From NCBI RefSeq assembly GCF_008807075.1, contig NZ_CP035632.1:2170001-2234000 (forward strand): a stretch of 64,000 bases of DNA. Reading direction: 5' to 3'. The DNA comes from Synechococcus sp. RSCCF101 (GTDB lineage: Bacteria; Cyanobacteriota; Cyanobacteriia; PCC-6307; Cyanobiaceae). The translations under genes and the position numbers were made by a program. The notes below the pieces were generated by a model, which saw nothing but the letters and a program-made list of their open reading frames with translations, made no database searches and had not been told where the DNA came from. Below are positions 20,295 through 31,731 of the stretch, one piece after another. Each line of letters starts with the position of its first letter. The first letter of the stretch is position 1.

Positions 20295-21854
20295 ATGCTT
20301 GGAGAGATCTGGTCTTTCCAGGGGAGATATCGAACCCTCCATCTCACCTGGTTCGCCTTTTTCCTGACCTTTGTGGTCTGGTTCAACCTGGCTCCACTGG
20401 CCACCACCGTTCGGGCCGACATGGGCCTTGATCTGGGCCAGATCCGCACGATCGCCATCTGCAACGTGGCGCTGACGGTCCCCGCCAGGGTGATCATCGG
20501 CATGCTGCTGGACAAGTTCGGGCCCCGCATCACTTACTCGTCCATTCTTGTCTATGCGGCCATTCCCTGTCTGATGTTCGCCACCGCCCAGACCTTTGGG
20601 CAGCTGGTGGTGGCTCGCCTGCTGCTCTCGATCGTGGGCGCGGGATTCGTGATCGGCATCCGCATGGTGGCTGAATGGTTCCCGCCCAAGGAGATCGGCC
20701 TGGCCGAAGGCATCTACGGCGGCTGGGGCAACTTCGGCTCCGCTTTCTCCGCCCTGACCCTGGTGATCGTTGCCGGCTGGCTGAGCTTCGCCGGTGGCGC
20801 CAGTGTGGACGGCGTGATCCTCAACTGGCGTGCAGCCATTGCCCTGACCGGCATCATCGCCGCCATCTACGGCGTCATCTACTTCTTCAGCGTCAGCGAT
20901 ACCCCGGAGGGCAAGACCTACCAGCGCCCCCACAAGACCGCCGGTCTGGAAGTCACTTCCATCCGCGATTTCTGGGGGCTGATGGGAATGAACGTTCCCT
21001 TCGCCGCCATTCTGGCCGTGCTCGCCTGGCGTCTTCAGAAGGTGGGCTTCCTGAACAGCACCACCTTCCCCCTGGCGATTCTTGCCATTCTCATCTGGTA
21101 CGGGGCCCAGTCATGGGGTGTGATCCGCACCAACAAGGATCTTCTGCTCGGTCGCAAGACCTATCCCAAGGAGGATCGCTACAGCTTCCGTCAGGTGGCC
21201 ATTCTGGAGCTCACCTACATCGTGAACTTCGGCTCCGAGCTCGCGGTGGTGTCGATGTTGCCGAGCTTCTTTGAATCGACCTTCTCCCTGCCCAAGTCGA
21301 CCGCCGGCATCCTGGCGGCCTCCTACGCCTTCATGAATCTGGCGGCCCGTCCGAGTGGTGGCCTCCTCTCGGACCGCCTCGGCTCGCGCAAGAACACGAT
21401 GGGCTTTCTCACCATCGGCCTCGGCATCGGCTATCTGCTGATGAGTCTGATCAAGCCGGGAACCTTCGTCGGCAGTCCCGGTGTGATTTTGGCCGTTCTG
21501 CTCACCATGTTCTGCTCCTTCTTTGTGCAGGCCGGTGAAGGCTCCACCTATGCCCTGGTGCCCCTGGTGAAGCGGCGTGTCACGGGTCAGATCGCCGGTC
21601 TGGTCGGGGCCTACGGCAACGTCGGCGCTGTGGCCTATCTGACGATCTACTCGCTGCTGCCGATGTGGATCGGTGGTGGTGCCGAGCCCACCCCTGCTGT
21701 GGTGGCGGCCTCGAACTCCACCTTCTTCCAGATCCTCGGCATCGCCGGACTGATCGTGGGCTTCCTCTGCTACTTCCTTCTGCGCGAACCGAAGGGCTCG
21801 TTCGCCGATCTGCACGAAGGGGAAGAGGAGACCCCCGCCCTCAGCGCCGTCTGA
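20295..21854 (+). CDS. nrtP: Nitrate/nitrite permease, NrtP type (MFS)
   Basis: This is a major facilitator protein of 519 residues with twelve predicted spans. The nitrate signature is present as GGWGNFGSAFSALTL after the second half of the N-terminal bundle, and MFS loop motifs DKFGPR and SDRLGSRKN are seen. Marine and euryhaline picocyanobacteria use this permease (NrtP/NapA) in place of the NrtABCD transporter. A long hydrophilic loop between the halves contains LLLGRKTYPKEDRYS. It is nine bases upstream of narB, so the two form an operon for nitrate uptake and reduction. Confidence 0.93.
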   Translation: MLGEIWSFQGRYRTLHLTWFAFFLTFVVWFNLAPLATTVRADMGLDLGQIRTIAICNVALTVPARVIIGMLLDKFGPRITYSSILVYAAIPCLMFATAQTFGQLVVARLLLSIVGAGFVIGIRMVAEWFPPKEIGLAEGIYGGWGNFGSAFSALTLVIVAGWLSFAGGASVDGVILNWRAAIALTGIIAAIYGVIYFFSVSDTPEGKTYQRPHKTAGLEVTSIRDFWGLMGMNVPFAAILAVLAWRLQKVGFLNSTTFPLAILAILIWYGAQSWGVIRTNKDLLLGRKTYPKEDRYSFRQVAILELTYIVNFGSELAVVSMLPSFFESTFSLPKSTAGILAASYAFMNLAARPSGGLLSDRLGSRKNTMGFLTIGLGIGYLLMSLIKPGTFVGSPGVILAVLLTMFCSFFVQAGEGSTYALVPLVKRRVTGQIAGLVGAYGNVGAVAYLTIYSLLPMWIGGGAEPTPAVVAASNSTFFQILGIAGLIVGFLCYFLLREPKGSFADLHEGEEETPALSAV

Positions 21855-21863
21855 CGACCCGCC

Positions 21864-24029
21864 ATGCCTGACGCCCCCGCGCCCCGCTCCCAGTGCCCCT
21901 ACTGCGGAGTGGGCTGTGGCCTCGAGCTGCTTCCGCCCGCCGCCAAGGGGCGGGCGACGCGGCGGGCCGAGGACGGAACACCGATCTGGGGCGCCCGCGG
22001 GGACCGGGCCCACCCCTCCACGGCGGGTCAGGTGTGTGTGAAGGGGGCCACGGTCACCCAGACCCTGGATGGGGAGCGGCTGCGGCAGCCGCTCTACCGA
22101 TCCAGCCTCGATGAGCCGTTCCAGCCCGTGAGCTGGGAGCAGGCGATCGATCGGATCGTGGACCAGCTGCAGCGGACCCTCGCCAGCAAGGGGCCCGAGG
22201 CCATCGCCGCCTACGGCTCCGGTCAGTTCCACACCGAGGACTACTACCTGGCCCAGAAGCTGTTCAAGGGAGCGCTGGGCACCAACAATTTCGATGCCAA
22301 CTCCCGCTTGTGCATGAGTTCGGCCGTGGCCGGCTACGCCCGCAGCCTCGGCTCCGACGGACCTCCCTGCTGTTACGAGGATCTCGACCTCTGCGATGCG
22401 GCCTTCCTGGTCGGCACGAACACCGCCGAGTGCCATCCGGTGCTGTTCCAGCGCCTGATCAAGCGGCGGCGCGGCCTGCTGACGGCGTCCGGTCCGAAGC
22501 TGGTGGTGGTGGATCCGCGCCGCACCGAAACCGCCCGCGCCGCCGATCTGCACCTGGCGATCCGCCCCGGTACCGATCTGGTGCTGCTGCACGGCCTGGC
22601 CCATCTGCTGCTGCGCCAGTCCTCGGTCGACTACGAGTTCCTGGAGAACGCCACCGAGGGCTTCTTCAGCTACGCCCGCCTGGTGCAGGAGTGGACCCCC
22701 CGGCGCGTCGCCCGGCTCTGCGGCATCCGGGAGAAGGATCTGCGCGAGGCGGCGCGGATCTGGGCCCGCTCCAAGGCGGTGCTCAGCCTCTGGTCGATGG
22801 GGGTGAACCAGTCCGTGGAGGGCACCGCCACGGTGGCCGGACTGATCAATCTGCACCTGCTGACCGGCCAGATCTGCGGTCCGGGCTGCGGTCCGTTCTC
22901 CCTCACCGGCCAGCCCAACGCGATGGGAGGCCGGGAAGCCGGCGGCCTCAGCCACCTGCTGCCCGGCTACCGGAGCGTCGGGGACGCCGAGCACCGGCGC
23001 CAGCTGGAGCAGGCCTGGGGGCTGCCTGAAGGCCAGATCGCCTCCAGCCCGGGCCTGAGCGCCTGGCAGCAGGTGGAGGCCATGGCCGAGGGCCGGCTCG
23101 ATGTCTGGTGGGTGGCCGCCACCAATCCGCTGGTGAGCATGCCGAATCTCGAGCGGGTGCGGCAGGCGATGCGCCGCTGCCCTCTGGTGATCGTGAGCGA
23201 TGCCTATGCCGGCACCGAGACGGCGGCCTTCGCCCACCTGGTGCTGCCGGCGGCCCAGTGGAGCGAGAAGGAGGGGGTGATGACCAACTCCGAGCGCCGG
23301 GTCACCCTCTGCCCGGCCTTCCGGCCGGCCCCCGGCGCCGCCCGCCCCGACTGGCAGGTGTTCGCCGAGGTGGGTCGGCGGCTGGGATACGAGGAGCAGT
23401 TCAGCTACGGCTCCGCCGCGGAGGTGTACGACGAGTTCGCCGCCCTCACCGCCGGACGGCTCTGTGATGTGTCGGGGCTGAGCCATGGGCTGCTGCGCGA
23501 GCAGGGCCCGCAGCAGTGGCCCCATCCCCGCGGCGCCGAACCCTCCAGCGGCTCCAGCCGCCTCTACGGCGACGCCGTGTTTCCCACCCCGACGGGCCGG
23601 GCCCGGCTCATCGCCGAGCAGCCCATGGGGCTGGCGGAGCCTCCGGATGACGACTATCCCCTGGTGCTCACCGTCGGCCGCTATCTGGGCCACTGGCACA
23701 CCATGACCCGCACCCGCCAGGTGCCACGCCTGCAGGGGATGCATCCGCAGCCGCTGCTGGAGATCCATCCGGAGGATGCCCGGAAGGTGGGCCTCGCCGA
23801 CGGTGCGCTGGCCTGCATCCGTTCCCGCCGCGGATCGCTCACCGCCGTCGCCTCGCTCGATGAGCGCATCCGTCCCGGGCTGGTGTTCCTGCCGATGCAC
23901 TGGGGGGCCAGCCAGGAGACACCGTGCGAGGCCAATGCCCTGATGCACGAGCAGGCCTGCCCCCGCTCCGGTCAGCCCGAGCTCAAGGCGGCGGCGGTTC
24001 AGGTGCTGCCGGCGGCAGAAACTCCCTGA
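21864..24029 (+). CDS. narB: Ferredoxin-nitrate reductase
   Basis: NarB reduces nitrate to nitrite with electrons from ferredoxin. The 721 residues start with the 4Fe-4S motif CPYCGVGC and, about 40 residues later, QVCVKG, followed by the molybdopterin oxidoreductase core (GSGQFHTEDYYLAQKLF, LTGQICGPGCGPFSLTGQPN, NPLVSMPN) and the dinucleotide-binding C-terminal domain (LGHWHTMTRTRQ). No flavin or second domain is present, as expected for the monomeric cyanobacterial enzyme. Its 3' end overlaps narM by 47 bases in the opposite direction. Confidence 0.95.
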   Translation: MPDAPAPRSQCPYCGVGCGLELLPPAAKGRATRRAEDGTPIWGARGDRAHPSTAGQVCVKGATVTQTLDGERLRQPLYRSSLDEPFQPVSWEQAIDRIVDQLQRTLASKGPEAIAAYGSGQFHTEDYYLAQKLFKGALGTNNFDANSRLCMSSAVAGYARSLGSDGPPCCYEDLDLCDAAFLVGTNTAECHPVLFQRLIKRRRGLLTASGPKLVVVDPRRTETARAADLHLAIRPGTDLVLLHGLAHLLLRQSSVDYEFLENATEGFFSYARLVQEWTPRRVARLCGIREKDLREAARIWARSKAVLSLWSMGVNQSVEGTATVAGLINLHLLTGQICGPGCGPFSLTGQPNAMGGREAGGLSHLLPGYRSVGDAEHRRQLEQAWGLPEGQIASSPGLSAWQQVEAMAEGRLDVWWVAATNPLVSMPNLERVRQAMRRCPLVIVSDAYAGTETAAFAHLVLPAAQWSEKEGVMTNSERRVTLCPAFRPAPGAARPDWQVFAEVGRRLGYEEQFSYGSAAEVYDEFAALTAGRLCDVSGLSHGLLREQGPQQWPHPRGAEPSSGSSRLYGDAVFPTPTGRARLIAEQPMGLAEPPDDDYPLVLTVGRYLGHWHTMTRTRQVPRLQGMHPQPLLEIHPEDARKVGLADGALACIRSRRGSLTAVASLDERIRPGLVFLPMHWGASQETPCEANALMHEQACPRSGQPELKAAAVQVLPAAETP

Positions 24030-24465
24030 GGGCAGGTCCGAGATTGTGGTGGTCGTGGCCCGGGCGGGCCAGCTTGCAGAGCGCGAAGCGCTGCAGCTCC
24101 GTCAACTGCTGCCAGTCCTGATCGCCGATGACTTCGCCGCAGGTCGAGGCGGAGCTCCGCACCCAGTCCGGCACGGTCTGCTCCTGCTGCCAGGGCTCGG
24201 CCTTCGCCGGGGGGAGATCCCTGGCCTGCCCATCGGCCAGACAGGCGGTGCGCTCTCTGAGGAAGGCCCGCAGCTCCTGCAGCGACGCAGGGGAGTCGTC
24301 CCAGTCCACCAGCCTCTGGCGCTCCTCCCGGGGCAGCTCGATCCAGTGGCCCAGCTTGAGCTTCACCCCGGCCAGATCCAGCTTGCGCCGCAGGCAGAGG
24401 GGGATGCAGCGCCAGCCGGAGACGAAGTCGAGCTCGAAGGCGAAGCAGTGGCTGGCCTGATCCAT
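23983..24465 (-). CDS. narM: Nitrate reductase-associated protein NarM
   Basis: The 160-residue protein matches the cyanobacterial nitrate reductase-associated family (PF09655): FAFELDFVSGWRCIPLCLR at the N-terminus and KLGHWIELPREERQRLVDW. NarM is required for active NarB in some cyanobacteria. The last 15 codons, a Pro-rich tail, run antisense over the end of narB. Its ATG overlaps the stop of the TrpD2-like gene (TGATG), so the two are probably translated in series from one NtcA-like promoter. Confidence 0.9.
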   Translation of the reverse strand: MDQASHCFAFELDFVSGWRCIPLCLRRKLDLAGVKLKLGHWIELPREERQRLVDWDDSPASLQELRAFLRERTACLADGQARDLPPAKAEPWQQEQTVPDWVRSSASTCGEVIGDQDWQQLTELQRFALCKLARPGHDHHNLGPALREFLPPAAPEPPPP

Positions 24466-25601
24466 CAGCTCTCGACCAGGCTCTGCCGCCAGGAGCGCAG
24501 GGCCCCCAGGGTGGCGAGCGGGGCGCCCCCACCGATCAGGGCCCGCGCCTGCTCCAGGGCCTGCTCCAGAGGCTGCAGGGGGTTGCTGAAGGCGAGATAG
24601 CAGGCCGCGTTCCAGAGCAATGGCAGGGCCAGTGGGCCCTCTCCCTGGAGGGCGGCCTGGGCCATGGCCGTCCAGGTCTCCGCGTCAGTCCAGCCGGGTT
24701 CGGGGGCGAAGCAGCCGTGGTCGCGCGGGTGGAGGATGCGGCGCTCGCTGCGGCCGTCCCGCACCGTGGCCGTGACGCAGGCCCGGCTGGTGGGCAGGTC
24801 GGTGCTGCCCTCCAGGCCCTTCACCGTGACCAGATCGCGTTCGCCGGCCAGCGCCAGGGCCTGCCAGGCCCGGGCCTCGGTGGGGGGATGCACAAAGCCG
24901 CTCACCAGCAGGTGGGGGCCCTGATGGGCGCTCCAGAGCAGCTCCAGGCTGGCCACGGGCGGGCGTTTGCCCAGATCCTCCCGGTAGGGGATCAGCTCCT
25001 CGGCCAGCGGGAAGTGATCCGGCTGATGCAGCAGCGCCAGGCCGTTGCGGTTGAAGCCCTCCTGCACCCGCTCCAGCGGCAGACCGGTCAGCTCCAGCCC
25101 GAGGGCCGCGAACAGCTCGGCCGCCGTGACCCCGTATTTCACGGGCATGCGCCCGGCCCCCTGCAGCACCACCGGCCGGCCGGCGCTGAGCAGCACCAGG
25201 GTGGTGAGGGGATAGATGGCTGCCGTGCGGCTGCGGCCGTCGAAGGGCATGCCGAAACAGATCGGCGGCCCCGCCCAGCCGGTGGCCTGATCCTCGGCTG
25301 TCGGTCCTGTCAGGACGGGCCCGAAGCGCCGGTAGGTGTCGAGCATGCCGGCGAGCTCCTGGGGTTCCGGGCGGCGGATGCGGTGGGCGATCAGGAAGGC
25401 CCCGATCTGGGCCGGACTGGCCGCCGCGGTGAGCATCAGCTCCATCGCCTCGGCGGCCTCCTCGCGGCTGAGGCCCTTGCTGGTGTGCTCGCCGCTGCCG
25501 ATCTTGCGGATCAGCGCCTTGAAGCGTTCCCGTCCCTCCCGTTCCGGTGTGACGGGGGAAGCGCCGCCTCGATCCGCGATCGCCGTTGCTGAGCTGACCA
25601 T
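24465..25601 (-). CDS. Anthranilate phosphoribosyltransferase-like protein (TrpD2 type)
   Basis: The 378-residue protein has the nucleoside phosphorylase/TrpD fold: an N-terminal helical part (GEHTSKGLSREEAAEAMELM) and a C-terminal alpha/beta part (VVLQGAGRMPVKYGVTAAELF, GFNRNGLALLHQPDHFP). Instead of the TrpD phosphate loop GTGGD it has PFDGRSRTAAIYP, as in TrpD2-like proteins, so it is probably not the tryptophan enzyme. The family often sits beside narM, narB or cynS in cyanobacteria, which suggests an unknown role in nitrogen assimilation. The start at 25601 is preferred over one 40 codons upstream since it lies downstream of the NtcA-like site. Confidence 0.85.
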   Translation of the reverse strand: MVSSATAIADRGGASPVTPEREGRERFKALIRKIGSGEHTSKGLSREEAAEAMELMLTAAASPAQIGAFLIAHRIRRPEPQELAGMLDTYRRFGPVLTGPTAEDQATGWAGPPICFGMPFDGRSRTAAIYPLTTLVLLSAGRPVVLQGAGRMPVKYGVTAAELFAALGLELTGLPLERVQEGFNRNGLALLHQPDHFPLAEELIPYREDLGKRPPVASLELLWSAHQGPHLLVSGFVHPPTEARAWQALALAGERDLVTVKGLEGSTDLPTSRACVTATVRDGRSERRILHPRDHGCFAPEPGWTDAETWTAMAQAALQGEGPLALPLLWNAACYLAFSNPLQPLEQALEQARALIGGGAPLATLGALRSWRQSLVES

Positions 25602-25640: not shown

Positions 25641-25682
25641 AGCATCCTGAGCCAGAGCACAGACCTTTGTAACGGTTGATGC
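25641..25682 (-). promoter_or_regulatory. NtcA-like promoter of the TrpD2-like/narM operon
   Basis: Read leftward, GCATCAACCGTTAC (25682 to 25669) matches GTA-N8-TAC at five of six positions. Exactly 22 bases later comes GATGCT (25646-25641), a -10-like hexamer. The predicted transcript start would be about 33 bases before the TrpD2-like ATG. The dyad also faces cynS, but no -10 is seen at the right distance there. Confidence 0.42.
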
Positions 25683-25736
25683 CGTGCGGGACGCCGGACT
25701 GGTCAACACTCGCGCCCGCACGCTTCATGTTTTGTC

Positions 25737-26189
25737 ATGCCGACTCCTGCCCCGACGGGAACCACCGCCGCCCTCCTGGCGGCCAAGAAGGCCAAGGGGC
25801 TCACCTTCACCCAGATCGGCGAGGCGATGGGCCGCAACGACGTGTGGGTGGCATCGCTCTTCTACCGCCAGGCCACCGCGTCGGCCGAGGAGGCTGCCAC
25901 CCTCACAGGGCTGCTGGGCCTGGATGCGGCCGTGGCGGAGGAGCTGCAGGAGTTCCCCACCAAGGGCTCCCTGGAGCCGGTGATTCCCACCGATCCGCTG
26001 ATCTACCGCTTCTACGAGATCATGCAGGTCTATGGAATGCCGATGAAGGATGTGATCCAGGAGAAGTTCGGTGACGGCATCATGAGCGCCATCGATTTCA
26101 CCCTCGAAGTCGACAAGGAAGCCAACCCCTCCGGCGATCGGGTCAAGATCACCATGTGCGGCAAGTTCCTGCCCTACAAGAAGTGGTGA
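25737..26189 (+). CDS. cynS: Cyanase (cyanate hydratase)
   Basis: CynS converts cyanate and bicarbonate to ammonium and carbon dioxide. The 150 residues show an N-terminal helix-turn-helix-like part ([20 protein letters not shown]) and the catalytic domain with Arg and Glu in [13 protein letters not shown] and Ser in [10 protein letters not shown]. Length matches the decameric enzyme. It is divergent from the TrpD2-like gene and ends at a strong hairpin shared with the HEAT-repeat gene. Confidence 0.95.
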
Positions 26190-26200
26190 GCTGAGCCGCT

Positions 26201-26237
26201 CGCCCGGGCTGGCGCGATCACCGCGTCAGCCCGGGCG
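26201..26237. terminator. Bidirectional hairpin between cynS and the HEAT-repeat gene
   Basis: GCCCGGGCTGGCGCG (26202-26216) pairs with CGCGTCAGCCCGGGC (26222-26236), 15 pairs including one G-T, with a five-base loop; 26201/26237 extend it. It lies between convergent genes and covers the stop of the leftward one. No T-run follows, so efficiency is uncertain. Confidence 0.55.
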
Positions 26238-27080
26238 GCTCAACAATCGCTCGGCCCGGGCAGGGTCGAGCACGCCCGCGGCCCGGGCCTCAGCGAGCGC
26301 CTCACGCATCCGCTCGCGGTGGCGGAACTGGCTCTGGATCTGCCGGTCCAGGGCCCGTTGCCCCGCCTGATCATTCACCCGCCCGATCAACCCGATCAGG
26401 GCCAGGGCGCTCGCTTCGCTGCCGATGCAGCCGAGGGCCTCGAGAGCGGCCTCCAGCACCGGCGGCACCGGCTCATCGGCTGCAATCTGGGCGATGGTCT
26501 CCACCACCGCCGCGTCGCTGCGTCGCTGCAGCAGTCGCAGGCCCGCCACCACCACCTCAGGGCGGGGATCGGCGAGCACCGGGGCGCAGAGATCCAGCAG
26601 CGCGTCGCTGGAGTGGTGGTGCACCTGAAACTGCAGCAGCTCCAGGGCGGCGAGCCGCGCGGTGCGCTCGGCCCGCTGCAGCCCCGCTGCGATCAGCTCC
26701 GGGTCCACCTGTGCGCCCCAGCAGCGCAGGGAGGCCAGCAGCTCCGCCGCCCCCGGTGCTGATTCGTTCGCCTGCCACCACTGCAGCAGCTGATCCCGGG
26801 CGCCGGGGTGGCGGGTCATGCCCATGGCCCGAACCAGGGCCGGCTCCGGGCCGAAGCGCTCGACAAGTTCCTGCAGCAGGGGCCAGGCGTCCGGACCCTG
26901 GCAGCCCAGACGTTCGGCCAGCACCTGCCGCAGGGACGGGCTGGCCGTCTGGCCGTAGGCCGCCGTCAGTTCGCTTCGGCTCAGGGGATCGCGCCTGCCC
27001 CGGCCCAGCCGCTCCCAGAGGGCCGCATCCCGCTCCTCGGAGGGTTCCGCATGCATGGGGTCGGACAGGGGCAGGGGCAT
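26226..27080 (-). CDS. HEAT-repeat protein
   Basis: The protein of about 284 residues is almost entirely alpha-helical, built of repeating helix pairs such as RTARLAALELLQFQVHHHSS, DPRPEVVVAGLRLLQRRSD and PVLEAALEALGCIGSEASAL. This is the pattern of PBS lyase/HEAT repeats, which mediate protein binding. It resembles HEAT proteins encoded near nitrite assimilation genes in picocyanobacteria and lies downstream of the nitrite channel and nirA on the same strand, so it may assist assembly or regulation of that pathway. The start could be at 27098, 27080 or 27056. Confidence 0.78.
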   Translation of the reverse strand: MPLPLSDPMHAEPSEERDAALWERLGRGRRDPLSRSELTAAYGQTASPSLRQVLAERLGCQGPDAWPLLQELVERFGPEPALVRAMGMTRHPGARDQLLQWWQANESAPGAAELLASLRCWGAQVDPELIAAGLQRAERTARLAALELLQFQVHHHSSDALLDLCAPVLADPRPEVVVAGLRLLQRRSDAAVVETIAQIAADEPVPPVLEAALEALGCIGSEASALALIGLIGRVNDQAGQRALDRQIQSQFRHRERMREALAEARAAGVLDPARAERLLSRPG

Positions 27081-27191
27081 GGCGGGAGGATGAATCAACA
27101 GAACAGCCCCGACCGGCCTCGGGGGCAGGACGGGGCTGTGAGTGACGGGCAGCGGCGGCTGGCCACCGCTGCCCCCGGAAGGGAGAGGCGA

Positions 27192-28073
27192 TCAGCGGGC
27201 GCCGAGTTCGGCGGCCAGCTCGCGCTCGAGCTTCTCGTCATGCACGGCGGGCAGCACGTTGTCGGCCGGGGTCTTGTGGGTGCCGTAGAAGAGCATGCCG
27301 ATGAACACCATGCCTCCGACGATGTTACCAGCGGTGACCGGCAGGAAGTTCCAGAAGATCGTGCTGCCGTAGTTCACTCCTGAACCCAGCATGGGGCCGG
27401 TGGTGTGCAGGAACATGTTCACCACGATGTGCTCCATGCCCAGCGCCTGGAAGGCGGTGATCGGAAGCCAGCAGGCAAGGATCTTGCCGGGCACGCTCTT
27501 GCTGACCAGGGCCAGGGTCACACCCAGACACACCAGCCAGTTGGCGATCAGGCCGCGCAGGAAGGCGAGGAAGAAGCCCAGGGCACCGAGATTTTCATAC
27601 TTGGTGATCACATTGGCCTTGTTCAGCGCGATGATCTTGTTGGCCACGGCCACCCAGTCGCCTGAACCATTGGCAAGATCGGCCGTGCCGCCGCTGGTGA
27701 GACTGATGGCGAACAGCACACCCACGGTAAAGGTGCCGAGCCAGTTGCCGATCCAGACCCAGATCCAGTTGCGGATCGTCTTGCTCCAGGTCGTCTTGCC
27801 GGCCCACACCGCCATCGGCAGCAGGGAGAAGTTCCCGGTGACCAGCTCCATGCCGAACAGCACGATGCTGGCGAAGCCGAAGGGGAAGATGAGAGACCCG
27901 ATCCAGTTGATCCCGGTCTGATGCATGATCGTCAGGGCCAGGCAGAGGGCCAGCCCCAGGGCGGATCCGGAGTAGAAACCGCGAATCAGCAGGTTCTTGA
28001 TGCTGACTGTGGCTTTCTTGCCGCCGGCGGCAATCATGCCGTCGACGAGCTCATTGGGAAGGACGTAATCCAT
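27192..28073 (-). CDS. Formate/nitrite transporter family channel
   Basis: The 293 residues form six membrane helices of the FNT family (FocA/NirC). Family features include the N-terminal LPNELVDGMIAAGGKKATVS, LFGMELVTGNFSLLP and the pore region MEHIVVNMFLHTTGPM with the conserved His. Directly downstream of nirA, it is most simply a nitrite uptake channel. The tail PADNVLPAVHDEKLEREL is cytoplasmic and charged. It uses fewer rare GC-rich codon runs than its neighbours, as highly expressed genes in this window do. Confidence 0.9.
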   Translation of the reverse strand: MDYVLPNELVDGMIAAGGKKATVSIKNLLIRGFYSGSALGLALCLALTIMHQTGINWIGSLIFPFGFASIVLFGMELVTGNFSLLPMAVWAGKTTWSKTIRNWIWVWIGNWLGTFTVGVLFAISLTSGGTADLANGSGDWVAVANKIIALNKANVITKYENLGALGFFLAFLRGLIANWLVCLGVTLALVSKSVPGKILACWLPITAFQALGMEHIVVNMFLHTTGPMLGSGVNYGSTIFWNFLPVTAGNIVGGMVFIGMLFYGTHKTPADNVLPAVHDEKLERELAAELGAR

Positions 28074-28148: not shown

Positions 28149-29702
28149 TCACATGGCTCGTGGCCGGGCGCCGTAGTGCTCGATCAGCAGGTCGCGCACC
28201 ACCTGTTTGACCTCATTGGCCGGAACCTTCTTGCGGGACGACGTCCCGATCTGGGGATCGGCCCCCTGGGAGCCGCCGATGGTGATGTCGTATCCCTCGC
28301 CCAGCTCACCGTCTGCCGATTTGGCCTTGGTGCCGGTGAGGCCGATGGCCCCCATGTAGGCCTGGCCGCAGCTGTTGGGGCAGCCGGTCCAGTGGATGCG
28401 CACCTCCTCGGGCAACTCCAGCTCCCGGTCCAGCTCCCGGGCGATGCCCATGGCCGTGTCCTTGGTGTTCGTGAGGGCGAAGCCGCAGTAGGTCTTGCCG
28501 GTGCAGGACACGGTTCCGGCCGAGACGCTGCCCGGATGCATGGGGAAGCGCTGCAGCAGCGGCTCGGCGGCCAGCGCATCGCTCCGGCTTGCCGGGATGC
28601 CGGAGAGGATCACGTTCTGATCCTCCGTGAGGCGCACCTCACCATCGCCGAAGGACTCGCTCAGGGCGGCGAGATCCTGCAGGTCCACGGCCTTGAGGCG
28701 ACCCACCGGCACGTGCAGGCCGGCGTAGAGCAGGCCCTCCTGCTTCTGGGGATGCAGACCCAGATGCTGCCTGGGCGTGGCATCGAACACCGAGCCCGGG
28801 TCCTCCGCCAGCGGCCCGAATCGCTCGACCACCTGGGCGCGGAAGGCCTCGATCCCCAGACCATCGAGGTAGAAGCGGAAGCGACCTTTGGGGCGGTTCT
28901 TGCGCTCGCCGTGGTCGCGCCAGAGGCCGATCACCGCATCGGTGAGCCGGCAGATCTCGTGAGGGGGCACCCAGGCATTGAGAGGCAGGGCGTAGGCGTT
29001 CATCTGGGAGGAGAGGATGCCGCCCACCCAGACGCCGAATCCCATCACGCCGTCGCGTTCCACGGGGTGGAAGACGATGTCGTTGTGCAGAAGGAAGTTG
29101 TCTTTGGAACCGGCCACGGCGGTGTTCCACTTGCGCGGCAGATTCGAGAAGCTGCGGTTGCCCTTGCCGCTGCCCACCAGGAAGTCCTGCAGCTCCTGGG
29201 TGTAGGGCCGGGTGTCGACGATCTCGTGCGGATCGATGCCGGCCAGCGGGTTGCCGGTGACGTTGCGGGGATTGTCGAAGCCGGACTGAATCGAGGTGAG
29301 GCCCACCTCTTTCAGGCGCTCCAGGATTTCGGGGAAGTCCTCGAGAAGCACACCCCTCAGCTGCAGGTTCTGGCGCGTGGTGATGTCGCAGCTGCCGTCG
29401 CTGCCATAGCGGGCCACGATCGAGGCCACGGCCCGCAGCTGCTCGGAGCTGATGATCCCGTTGGGCACCCGCAGGCGCAGCATGAACTGGCCGGGTGTGA
29501 CCGGTCGCCAGAACAGGCCGAACCACTTGAGGCGCAGCTGCAAATCGGTCTCATCGATGGCCTGCCAGCCCGCCTGGGCGAAGCGCTCGAGGTCGCCGGC
29601 CAGATCGAGTCCGTCGCGGGCGGCCTTGTTCTGCTCCACCTTGTTGAGGGTCTTGCCCTCGAGGTAGGGAGCCAGAGGTCGATTGCCGGCGGTGGTGGTC
29701 AT
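28149..29702 (-). CDS. nirA: Ferredoxin-nitrite reductase
   Basis: NirA reduces nitrite to ammonium with six electrons from ferredoxin, using a 4Fe-4S cluster and siroheme. The 517-residue protein has the duplicated sulfite/nitrite reductase fold. The four cluster/siroheme Cys ligands are seen in SCTGKTYCGFALTN and HWTGCPNSCGQAYMG. The start MTTTAGNRPLAPYLEGK fits the family length; the frame is open 26 codons further upstream, inside the leader. The gene has a leader of about 185 bases containing a small ORF and a hairpin (29728-29744), behind an NtcA-type promoter. Confidence 0.95.
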   Translation of the reverse strand: MTTTAGNRPLAPYLEGKTLNKVEQNKAARDGLDLAGDLERFAQAGWQAIDETDLQLRLKWFGLFWRPVTPGQFMLRLRVPNGIISSEQLRAVASIVARYGSDGSCDITTRQNLQLRGVLLEDFPEILERLKEVGLTSIQSGFDNPRNVTGNPLAGIDPHEIVDTRPYTQELQDFLVGSGKGNRSFSNLPRKWNTAVAGSKDNFLLHNDIVFHPVERDGVMGFGVWVGGILSSQMNAYALPLNAWVPPHEICRLTDAVIGLWRDHGERKNRPKGRFRFYLDGLGIEAFRAQVVERFGPLAEDPGSVFDATPRQHLGLHPQKQEGLLYAGLHVPVGRLKAVDLQDLAALSESFGDGEVRLTEDQNVILSGIPASRSDALAAEPLLQRFPMHPGSVSAGTVSCTGKTYCGFALTNTKDTAMGIARELDRELELPEEVRIHWTGCPNSCGQAYMGAIGLTGTKAKSADGELGEGYDITIGGSQGADPQIGTSSRKKVPANEVKQVVRDLLIEHYGARPRAM

Positions 29703-29755
29703 GAAGGCGCTGGATGCGGGGATGAAACGCCTCACCTGGAGGCGCCGGGACGTGA

Positions 29756-29857
29756 TCACTGCAGCGGCATGGCAAGCCATGCAGGAGGGGCAAGAGCCCT
29801 GGAGCCATTCCCGAGCGCGGCGAAACCGTCAGCGCGCCATGGGTCGTACGGGGTCAT
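29756..29857 (-). CDS. Possible 33-codon upstream ORF in the nirA leader
   Basis: After the predicted nirA promoter an ATG opens a 33-codon frame (MTPYDPWRADGFAALGNG... ending PLQ) that stops 54 bases before the nirA ATG. It has no clear ribosome binding site. In other cyanobacteria a small NtcA-controlled protein, NirP1, is encoded upstream of nirA and binds nitrite reductase; I cannot show that this is its homologue. The 468 bases between nirA and the chelatase gene hold this ORF, an NtcA site and a hairpin, and nothing else that I recognise. Confidence 0.25.
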   Translation of the reverse strand: MTPYDPWRADGFAALGNGSRALAPPAWLAMPLQ

Positions 29858-29891: not shown

Positions 29892-29933
29892 ATTAACTCT
29901 TGTTTCCGGATCAGCCGGAGTAGCCGTCGCTAC
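29892..29933 (-). promoter_or_regulatory. NtcA-activated promoter of nirA
   Basis: GTAGCGACGGCTAC (29933 to 29920, leftward) is a perfect GTA-N8-TAC NtcA box. Exactly 22 bases further comes GTTAAT (29897-29892), a plausible -10. This is the class II NtcA layout known from cyanobacterial nirA promoters. The palindrome also faces the siroheme genes to the right, but no -10 at 22 bases is seen in that direction. Confidence 0.7.
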
Positions 29934-30938: not shown

Positions 30939-30958
30939 ACGGACGCGGCACCGGCACC

Positions 30959-31731
30959 GTGTATCTCGTGGGCGCCGGTCCAGGGGATCCGGATCTGCTC
31001 ACCCTCAGGGCCCATCAACTGCTCAGCCGCTGCGATGCCCTGGTGCACGACGCGCTGGTGCCCGAGGCCCTGCTCCAGCTCACGCCGGCCCACTGCGAGC
31101 GCCATTTCGTGGGCAAGCGGCGCGGTCACCATTCCGTTCCCCAGCCCTCCACCAATTCGGTGCTGGTGGATCTGGCCGGACGCCACCGCTGCGTGGTGCG
31201 GCTCAAGGGGGGGATCCCTTCCTCTTCGGTCGTGGTGGGGAGGAGGCGGCCCACCTCCAGGCCCATGGCATCGCGGTGGAGGTGGTGCCCGGCGTCACCG
31301 CCGGCATCGCCGCTCCGGCCTACATCGGCATCCCGGTCACCCATCGCCATGCCGGCTCATCGATCACCTTCGTGACCGGACACGAGGAGGTCGACAAGGC
31401 CCGGCCCGGAGTCGACTGGCGCGGACTGGCCCGGGCCAGCGACGGCCTGGTGATCTACATGGGCCTCCACAACCTGGCCCGCATCTGCGAGGAGCTGATG
31501 GCCGGTGGCCTGGCACCTGCCACTCCGGCCGCCGTGATCCAGCAGGGCACGGTGGCGGGCCAGCGTCACCTGATCGCGGCTCTCGGCGCCCTGGCGGAGG
31601 AGGCCCGCCGGCAGCACTTTCAGTCGCCGGCGATCGTGGTGATCGGCGAGGTGGTGGCCCGGCGGGTGGAACACTGCGCGCCGCAGCCGGCGGCGGTGAC
31701 CATGCCGATTCCGATCCCGCTGCCGCTCTGA
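30959..31731 (+). pseudogene. cobA: Uroporphyrinogen-III C-methyltransferase, one-base frameshift
   Basis: CobA methylates uroporphyrinogen III twice to precorrin-2, the root of siroheme and cobalamin. The N-terminal part (VYLVGAGPGDPDLLTLRAHQ ... CVVRLKGG) is read in one frame from GTG 30959. The rest (PFLFGRGGEEAAHL ... VEVVPGVTAGIAAPAYIGIP, VTGHEEVDK, IQQGTVAGQRHL) is in another frame. The switch is at a run of seven G (31207-31213), where the conserved RLKGGDPFLFGRGG requires eight. One base restores a full-length enzyme of about 258 residues. Either a real loss, slippage at the run, or a sequencing error; the pathway need of NirA makes error or slippage attractive. Confidence 0.85.

Follow-up and report, generated by a model that had tools for sequence, protein, structure and literature searches.

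A TrpD-fold protein of the CnaT family in a cyanobacterial nitrate assimilation cluster: a putative regulatory or accessory factor

What does a protein with the fold of anthranilate phosphoribosyltransferase (TrpD) do among the genes of nitrate assimilation? The question is raised by a gene at positions 24465–25601 (minus strand) of a stretch of 64,000 nucleotides from the genome of Synechococcus sp. RSCCF101 (hereinafter, the window). The genome is a single contig of 2,984,853 bases, and its source, judged by its relatives, appears to be a picocyanobacterium. The first-pass annotation, made from the sequence, described the product as a TrpD2-like protein lacking the TrpD loop, translationally coupled to narM and preceded by an NtcA-like promoter, tied it to nitrate reductase maturation, and suggested for it a so far undescribed role in nitrate assimilation, linked to nucleic acid or a cofactor. 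The open reading frame (ORF) is real and lies on the minus strand; read on the plus strand, the same interval is interrupted by a stop codon. The analysis indicates that the gene is cnaT, and on balance we favor a regulatory or accessory role of its product in nitrate and nitrite assimilation.

Family assignment and the altered substrate cleft

The window protein scores 497 bits with the family model NF005635 (PRK07394), the curated cut-off of which is 287. In the phylogenetic tree, which was rooted at the midpoint and included only two TrpD and three YbiB-like sequences (labelled by motif), 14 of the 14 CnaT sequences (NF005635) lie on one side of a branch with 100/100 support. Judged by the family score, the tree, and a setting like that of Synechococcus WH7803, the window gene is cnaT. 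This gene has been known by name since 2003, not by mechanism; going by the title of the paper by Frias, Herrero and Flores (2003), it is reportedly needed for expression of the nir operon. No mechanism for cnaT was found in the literature searched. Passages of PMC9430850 cite cnaT as a positive regulatory element of nirA-operon expression, an effect printed there for Nostoc, and place the WH7803 cnaT, with its NtcA sites, in a nitrate gene region including cynS. The family thus exists in print as cnaT, and therefore the first-pass statement that such a role had not been described was mistaken. In addition, a gene of anthranilate phosphoribosyltransferase located beside nrtABCD in freshwater picocyanobacteria, called unrelated in a passage of PMC10161378, may be the same gene.

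Other assignments were considered and rejected. The score with the equivalog model of true TrpD is 63 bits against a cut-off of 199, and the TrpD motifs are replaced. The YbiB (TrpD2) model gives 88.7 bits against 185, and CnaT proteins are not grouped with the YbiB-like ones on the tree; the TrpD2 label fits only loosely. Membership in PRK09071 (NF006564) would require 257 bits, with 87 observed, and these proteins form a separate branch. As for the names nirX and nirB, they are never tied to the CnaT family in the passages available of PMC6370341, PMC10119275, PMC7699953, and PMC10161378. The HEAT-repeat gene of the window is the likelier counterpart of NirX/NirB; a HEAT protein is also encoded near the LysR gene (see below) in other cyanobacteria.

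The phosphoribosyltransferase fold without the TrpD loop, noted at first pass, was confirmed. The Glycos_trans_3N domain is over its cut-off in the window protein (58.7 bits), and Glycos_transf_3 is under it (21.1 bits, cut-off 27). In TrpD, GTGGDG is the phosphoribosyl pyrophosphate (PRPP) loop and the DE pair is metal-binding. According to the alignment, MPFDGRSRTAAIYPL stands in the window protein at the position of the TrpD loop GTGGDG..T.NIST, and the PRPP loop and DE pair are replaced by MPFDGRSRT and GLEGSTDL. The loop motif is xP(Y/F)DGRx(R/K)T in CnaT, mostly YAGK(R/K) or YAAGRT in PRK09071, and PSYNGAR(K/R) in YbiB-like proteins, and the TrpD segment G.DG.DE reads GLEG..D in the CnaT sequences compared. 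Since both the PRPP loop and the DE pair are gone, CnaT is most likely no longer an anthranilate phosphoribosyltransferase, and it is probably no phosphoribosyltransferase any more.

Conservation is nevertheless strict: P119, D121, R123, K155, G211-K212-R213-P214, H238, E242, G262, E264, and G265 are invariant in 67 CnaT sequences, which are the window protein and those of 66 of the 79 loci fetched, the remainder being omitted merely for size. According to passages of PMC10123104, YbiB binds nucleic acid and the acidic tail of ObgE; Arg92 and Arg123 bind the tail, and the groove is thought to hold DNA. Counted on the alignment, R123/R125 and K155 of CnaT lie at or beside YbiB Arg92 and Arg123 and are not identical with them. 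Because the YbiB arginines bind an acidic tail and CnaT is basic at or beside the same places, a CnaT cleft that would bind an anion, a peptide, or nucleic acid is favored.

Association of cnaT with nitrate assimilation genes

A survey of the phylum covered 386 evenly drawn genomes, and NF005635 was over its cut-off in 162 of them. Both cnaT and nirA are present in 156 genomes, cnaT only in 6, nirA only in 5, and neither in 219, with the G385 genome (partial cnaT; partial, broken narB) scored as lacking cnaT and nirA. The Fisher p-value of the association is about 3e-93, uncorrected for kinship and with many of the 219 genomes lying outside the class of the window. In 151 genomes of the window’s family (picocyanobacteria), the corresponding counts are 127, 5, 5, and 14, the G844 genome being scored as having nirA, which is cut by the contig end and falls below the cut-off. 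The cnaT–nirA link is strong, not strict, and a role in nitrate assimilation, as suggested at first pass, is well supported by it.

The presence of narB and narM was checked in 21 genomes. Four of them (G310, G350, G276, G366) have cnaT and nirA without narB and narM, and five (G114, G165, G223, G051, G087) have cnaT without any of the other three genes. In the G153 genome, cnaT is present without nirA, narM contains stops, and narB is only a scrap. The converse is represented by five genomes (G161, G209, G259, G294, G284) with nirA, narB, and narM and no cnaT over the cut-off; their best cnaT matches (1e-21 to 1e-26) correspond to the second, TrpD-like match found elsewhere. Consequently, cnaT is not universally needed, and, because genomes keep cnaT without narB, it is not tied to narB alone. 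A role restricted to nitrate reductase maturation therefore fits these patterns poorly. Intact narM was also observed in G127 (C42:48247-48678) and G262 (C57:15515-15946), which lack full nirA and cnaT and have a narB scrap at most.

Among the 151 genomes of the window’s family, cnaT over the cut-off occurs without nirA in five (G114, G165, G223, G809, G833), and the cnaT frames of nirA-less strains are open. The G165 and G223 proteins are 69% identical, and the ratio of nonsynonymous to synonymous substitution rates (dN/dS) of cnaT is 0.22, the highest of the 11 genes compared (0.03–0.20 in ten neighbors) and far from neutral. For G165 and G114, it is 0.19 (0.04–0.22 in the neighbors, two of ten saturated); dS is near saturation.

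Gene neighborhoods were compared using one locus per genus from 79 genera, in stretches of up to 20 kb, with the window as the 80th locus. One protein cluster, represented by a LysR regulator (PF00126 and PF03466), occurs in 54 of the 80 loci. In 53 loci the LysR gene is upstream of cnaT on the same strand, less than 200 bp away in 44; in the L099 locus it lies about 4 kb downstream. We read this gene as ntcB, given that it adjoins cnaT and nirA and given the all0601/all0602 numbering in passages of PMC9430850 and PMC3898017. At least one of ntcB, nirA, narB, narM, focA, and nrtP lies within the fetched stretch in 66 of the 79 loci, and nirA, narB, or narM in 30; 13 loci have no listed nitrogen gene, two of them on stretches of about 11 kb. 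Thus, the family members are not mostly located outside nitrogen gene neighborhoods, the finding which the first-pass annotation had named as evidence against its proposal. In G051, G087, and G153, the NtcB–CnaT pair outlasts nirA and narB.

The partner genes differ between groups. Of the 67 loci outside the window’s family, 54 contain the LysR gene and 7 contain narM. The NtcB profile gives more than 530 bits in six of the eight genomes tested from outside this family, and no NtcB was found in 26 genomes of the family including the source, where the best matches (100–120 bits) score on a par with other LysR proteins obtained in that search. Adjacency to ntcB was not taken as a defining feature of CnaT. 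In the window’s family, 45 of the 151 genomes, belonging to 15 genera, have narM directly after cnaT and on the same strand, and the gap between the profile matches is under 100 bp in 38 of the 45. This count includes G804 (narM 107 bits, just under the cut-off) and excludes G816 and G274. In the latter two, narM remnants stand directly behind cnaT (G816 C1:1928682-1928801, 40 bits; G274 C2:229097-229270, 28 bits), and G274 has a full narM elsewhere in the genome.

In the G833 genome, cnaT and narM form a single open frame (NF005635 412 bits, TIGR02664 139 bits), both parts of which are backed by Pfam, with mobA- and moaA-like genes as neighbors. G833 is a draft assembly in about 90 contigs. 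It contains no nirA, and the only stand-in for narB within the 18 kb inspected is a distant molybdopterin oxidoreductase (104 bits to NarB); this single fusion may therefore mark a stage of decay or result from misassembly. The tie of the gene to narM and nitrate assimilation, proposed at first pass, is thus seen beyond the window. Another arrangement was observed in the genus g8 (L283, L284, L287; e.g., G304), where two cnaT copies are about 10 kb apart and one of them adjoins nirA.

The 135-bp gap between the cnaT start codon and cynS contains GCATCAACCGTTAC, then 22 nt, then GATGCT, that is, GCA-N8-TAC, N22, GATGCT. In passages of PMC3898017, the consensus of NtcA promoters is GTA-N8-TAC about 22 nt ahead of TAN3T. 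Of the NtcA-like promoter claimed at first pass, the spacing agrees with the consensus, and each of the boxes deviates from it by one base. An exact GTA-N8-TAC occurs just once in the window, at 29920, upstream of nirA. Sites with no more than one mismatch are common (39 per 64-kb window), and therefore about 0.08 would be expected in the gap; the site alone was dropped as evidence, and its position is better evidence than the site itself. In 13 of 21 picocyanobacterial loci, a site with zero or one mismatch lies 45–111 bp ahead of the start of the CnaT tblastn match (this is the ATG only in the window’s own locus), a zone that was picked after the data were seen and in genomes that are related. 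Such a site is present in 12 of the 13 narM-bearing loci vs. one of the eight narM-less loci.

The nitrate assimilation cluster spans about 18.5–30 kb of the window (Table 1). The TGATG overlap reported at first pass is present and narM is genuine. The cnaT frame can be extended upstream to a GTG at 25721; the promoter-like sequence agrees with a start at the ATG at 25601. The narM and narB genes converge, and their 3′ ends overlap by 47 bp (23983–24029). The narB-type protein has three molybdopterin oxidoreductase domains over Pfam cut-offs and reaches the cut-off of none of the NCBIfam models (NasC, 514 bits vs. 1100); for the focA/nirC-type channel, the NCBIfam models are all below their own cut-offs. 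The cluster also holds moaA and mobA, which are over Pfam cut-offs and slightly or well under the NCBIfam ones. On the nirA side, cobA (uroporphyrinogen-III methyltransferase; 30953–31662, plus strand) is split by a frameshift near a G run, and the cobA family cut-off is reached nowhere in the source genome. This split can be explained either by a sequencing error or by recent loss.

Table 1. Features in and around cnaT in the window (positions in the window).
Feature	Position	Strand	Basis
cnaT, TrpD-fold protein, 378 aa (P0001)	24465..25601	-	NF005635 497 bits (cut-off 287)
TGATG, cnaT stop overlapping narM start codon	24463..24467	-	read from sequence
narM, nitrate reductase maturation, 160 aa	23983..24465	-	TIGR02664 151 bits (cut-off 110); PF09655 153 bits
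NtcA-like site GCATCAACCGTTAC, 1 mismatch to GTA-N8-TAC	25669..25682	-	
-10-like box GATGCT, 22 nt past NtcA-like site	25641..25646	-	
cynS (cyanase), divergent from cnaT	25737..26189	+	TIGR00673 200 bits (cut-off 113)
narB-type nitrate reductase, catalytic subunit	21864..24029	+	named by neighborhood and best models
nitrate/nitrite MFS transporter (nrtP/napA type)	20295..21854	+	TIGR00886 367 bits (cut-off 312)
nirA, ferredoxin-nitrite reductase	28149..29780	-	NF007125 833 bits (cut-off 594)
formate/nitrite channel (focA/nirC type)	27192..28073	-	PF01226 204 bits (over cut-off)
HEAT-repeat protein, in line with nirA and focA	26226..27098	-	

PRK09071 relatives and LysR fusions in proteobacteria

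A search of plasmids with P0001 returned four records; of the three examined, one contained a nitrate-linked PRK09071 gene and two contained trp operons. The former is a Catenovulum plasmid (L111), in which the PRK09071 gene is located directly behind an annotated nitrate reductase gene, with cobA and nirB near. A second plasmid set comprised 56 records, and 14 neighborhoods, hand-picked at about one per genus, were read besides that of Catenovulum. In the Sulfitobacter W027 and Ponticoccus plasmids (L116, L120), the order as annotated is nirB–nirD–nitrate reductase–PRK09071–cysG. In Vibrio THAF64 (L126), the order nitrate reductase–cobA–PRK09071–nasT-like was read by eye from the ORFs without a family scan. 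The Acinetobacter and Photobacterium copies have neither a nitrate nor an iron setting.

A fairer sample consists of 398 evenly drawn genomes from the phylum of G386 (Pseudooceanicola), 57 of which are over the PRK09071 cut-off (L208–L264). Sixteen of these 57 loci (15 of 56 without the seed genome G386) have a nitrate reductase gene on the same strand, no more than 3 kb upstream, and one locus has nirB and cobA only. In 17 loci, a cysG-like gene is located 1.2–3.1 kb away on the other strand, two loci (L252, L260) encode fusions with a LysR helix-turn-helix (HTH) domain, detected with a purpose-built HTH profile, beside iron uptake genes, and 21 loci have none of these settings. In a separate set of 80 PRK09071 loci, nasA was upstream in 70; this sample is biased because the search was seeded from a nitrate-linked protein.

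Nine longer plasmid proteins combine the two domains: HTH_1 (LysR) and Glycos_trans_3N are both over their cut-offs in eight, and L127 has a partial HTH. No LysR effector domain was found in the plasmid fusion proteins scanned, and all nine loci adjoin TonB receptors or iron/siderophore transport genes. Altogether, the fusion loci are L117–L119, L121–L125, L252, and L260, with L127 as a partial case. On the tree, nine LysR fusions form one clade (100/100) nested in PRK09071 and sister (96/94) to four standalone proteins, of which L116, L120, and L248 are nitrate-linked and L261 is not.

Possible role of CnaT, alternatives, and known systems

The reading that we favor, with some confidence, is that CnaT is a regulatory or accessory TrpD-fold protein of nitrate and nitrite assimilation. 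An NtcA-type promoter would place its synthesis under nitrogen control, and its old substrate cleft, with the invariant Arg and Lys seen in the alignment, would bind an anionic ligand, an acidic stretch of a protein, or nucleic acid. CnaT would then pass the state of the cleft to a partner, thereby allowing the expression of nitrate assimilation genes and the maturation of their products. The likely partner in most cyanobacteria is the LysR activator NtcB, as the gene neighborhood suggests. In picocyanobacteria, in which NtcB was not detected, NarM or another factor may have taken over this role, a possibility to which the adjacency and the single fusion point.

Several points weigh against this. 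The five genomes that keep cnaT without nirA, narB, and narM, and the five with the reverse pattern, count against it. The strict conservation of residues would equally suit an enzyme. The cleft of CnaT is drawn from alignments, and ligand binding, contact with the partner, and transcriptional action are putative. On the tree, CnaT stands apart from PRK09071 and groups with the two TrpD sequences; given that the LysR fusions sit in the PRK09071 branch and CnaT is nearer to TrpD, the analogy with the fusions may not carry over.

The close contact with narM brings up another explanation, namely that CnaT is a maturation factor acting with NarM on NarB, for example in molybdenum cofactor handling. 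This would agree with the TGATG overlap in the window, the directly following narM in 45 picocyanobacteria (mostly with short gaps), the CnaT–NarM frame of G833 beside mobA- and moaA-like genes, and the ability of proteobacterial PRK09071 genes to follow nitrate reductase and precede cysG. However, four genomes retain cnaT and nirA in the absence of narB and narM, five have narB and narM and manage without cnaT, narM is far rarer than the LysR gene beside cnaT outside the window’s family, the G833 fusion may belong to a decaying cluster or be an assembly error, and the description printed in the passages of PMC9430850 concerns operon expression. We consider this explanation unlikely, and a role in the maturation of NarB only is disfavored. 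Quite improbable, in our estimate, is an enzyme of new chemistry, which would convert another phosphorylated substrate into an inducer or a modified precursor of molybdopterin or siroheme. The old active-site residues are kept in the 67 sequences more strictly than a bare scaffold needs, and the proteobacterial relatives adjoin cysG or cobA and nitrate reductase; yet neither the Gly-rich PRPP loop nor the DE pair is retained, and none of the models for known catalytic families reaches its cut-off.

A wider function in nitrogen status, in which CnaT would target a general factor, with the link to nitrate as one of its outputs, has in our view a similarly low probability. It is in line with the five family genomes that have cnaT and no nirA, three of which (G114, G165, G223) also lack narB and narM, with the low dN/dS of cnaT in these strains, and with the NtcA-like site being absent in seven of the eight narM-less loci and present in almost all narM-bearing ones. 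Nevertheless, the association of cnaT with nirA is very strong, G833 retains narM, and the dN/dS in the G165–G223 pair, the highest among the genes compared, may reflect slow decay after a loss.

A broader idea can be put forward tentatively: the TrpD-like fold without its chemistry may be a reusable sensory module of bacterial gene control, drawn into nitrate assimilation on at least two occasions (CnaT and PRK09071) and built, in place of the effector domain, into one-component LysR-HTH regulators located beside iron-uptake genes. CnaT would then be a separate sensor arm of NtcB, rewired to NarM in picocyanobacteria. If so, this rewiring would link nitrate-assimilation sensing with the maturation of enzymes, and a general sensor fold would account for a set of proteobacterial ‘glycosyl transferase family’ genes, probably misnamed, that occur in clusters for nitrate and iron. 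The patterns described make testable the contact of CnaT with NtcB or NarM, the content of the cleft, and the retention of cnaT in strains without nitrate and nitrite reductases. New here are the contrast between NtcB and narM neighborhoods, the non-strict link of cnaT and nirA, and the nitrate setting of PRK09071 together with its LysR fusions.

Among known systems, CnaT of Nostoc/Anabaena PCC 7120 (all0601) and of WH7803 are taken to belong to the same family by score, and the WH7803 gene, according to passages of PMC9430850, has the same setting, with nitrate genes, cynS, and upstream NtcA sites. NirX and NirB are likewise accessory genes of nitrite-reduction clusters in the passages of PMC6370341, PMC10119275, PMC7699953, and PMC10161378. 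TrpD shares the fold and the overall alignment with CnaT and differs by the GTGGDG loop and the DE pair. Like CnaT, YbiB (TrpD2) of E. coli has a TrpD fold without TrpD chemistry and basic residues at the place of the PRPP loop. PRK09071 proteins also have a TrpD fold and adjoin assimilatory nitrate reductase in part of the proteobacteria; unlike CnaT, they form a separate branch, and other loci of theirs are near cysG or iron-uptake genes. Finally, in many other cyanobacteria the LysR gene read as ntcB stands beside cnaT, whereas in the window cnaT is coupled to narM instead.

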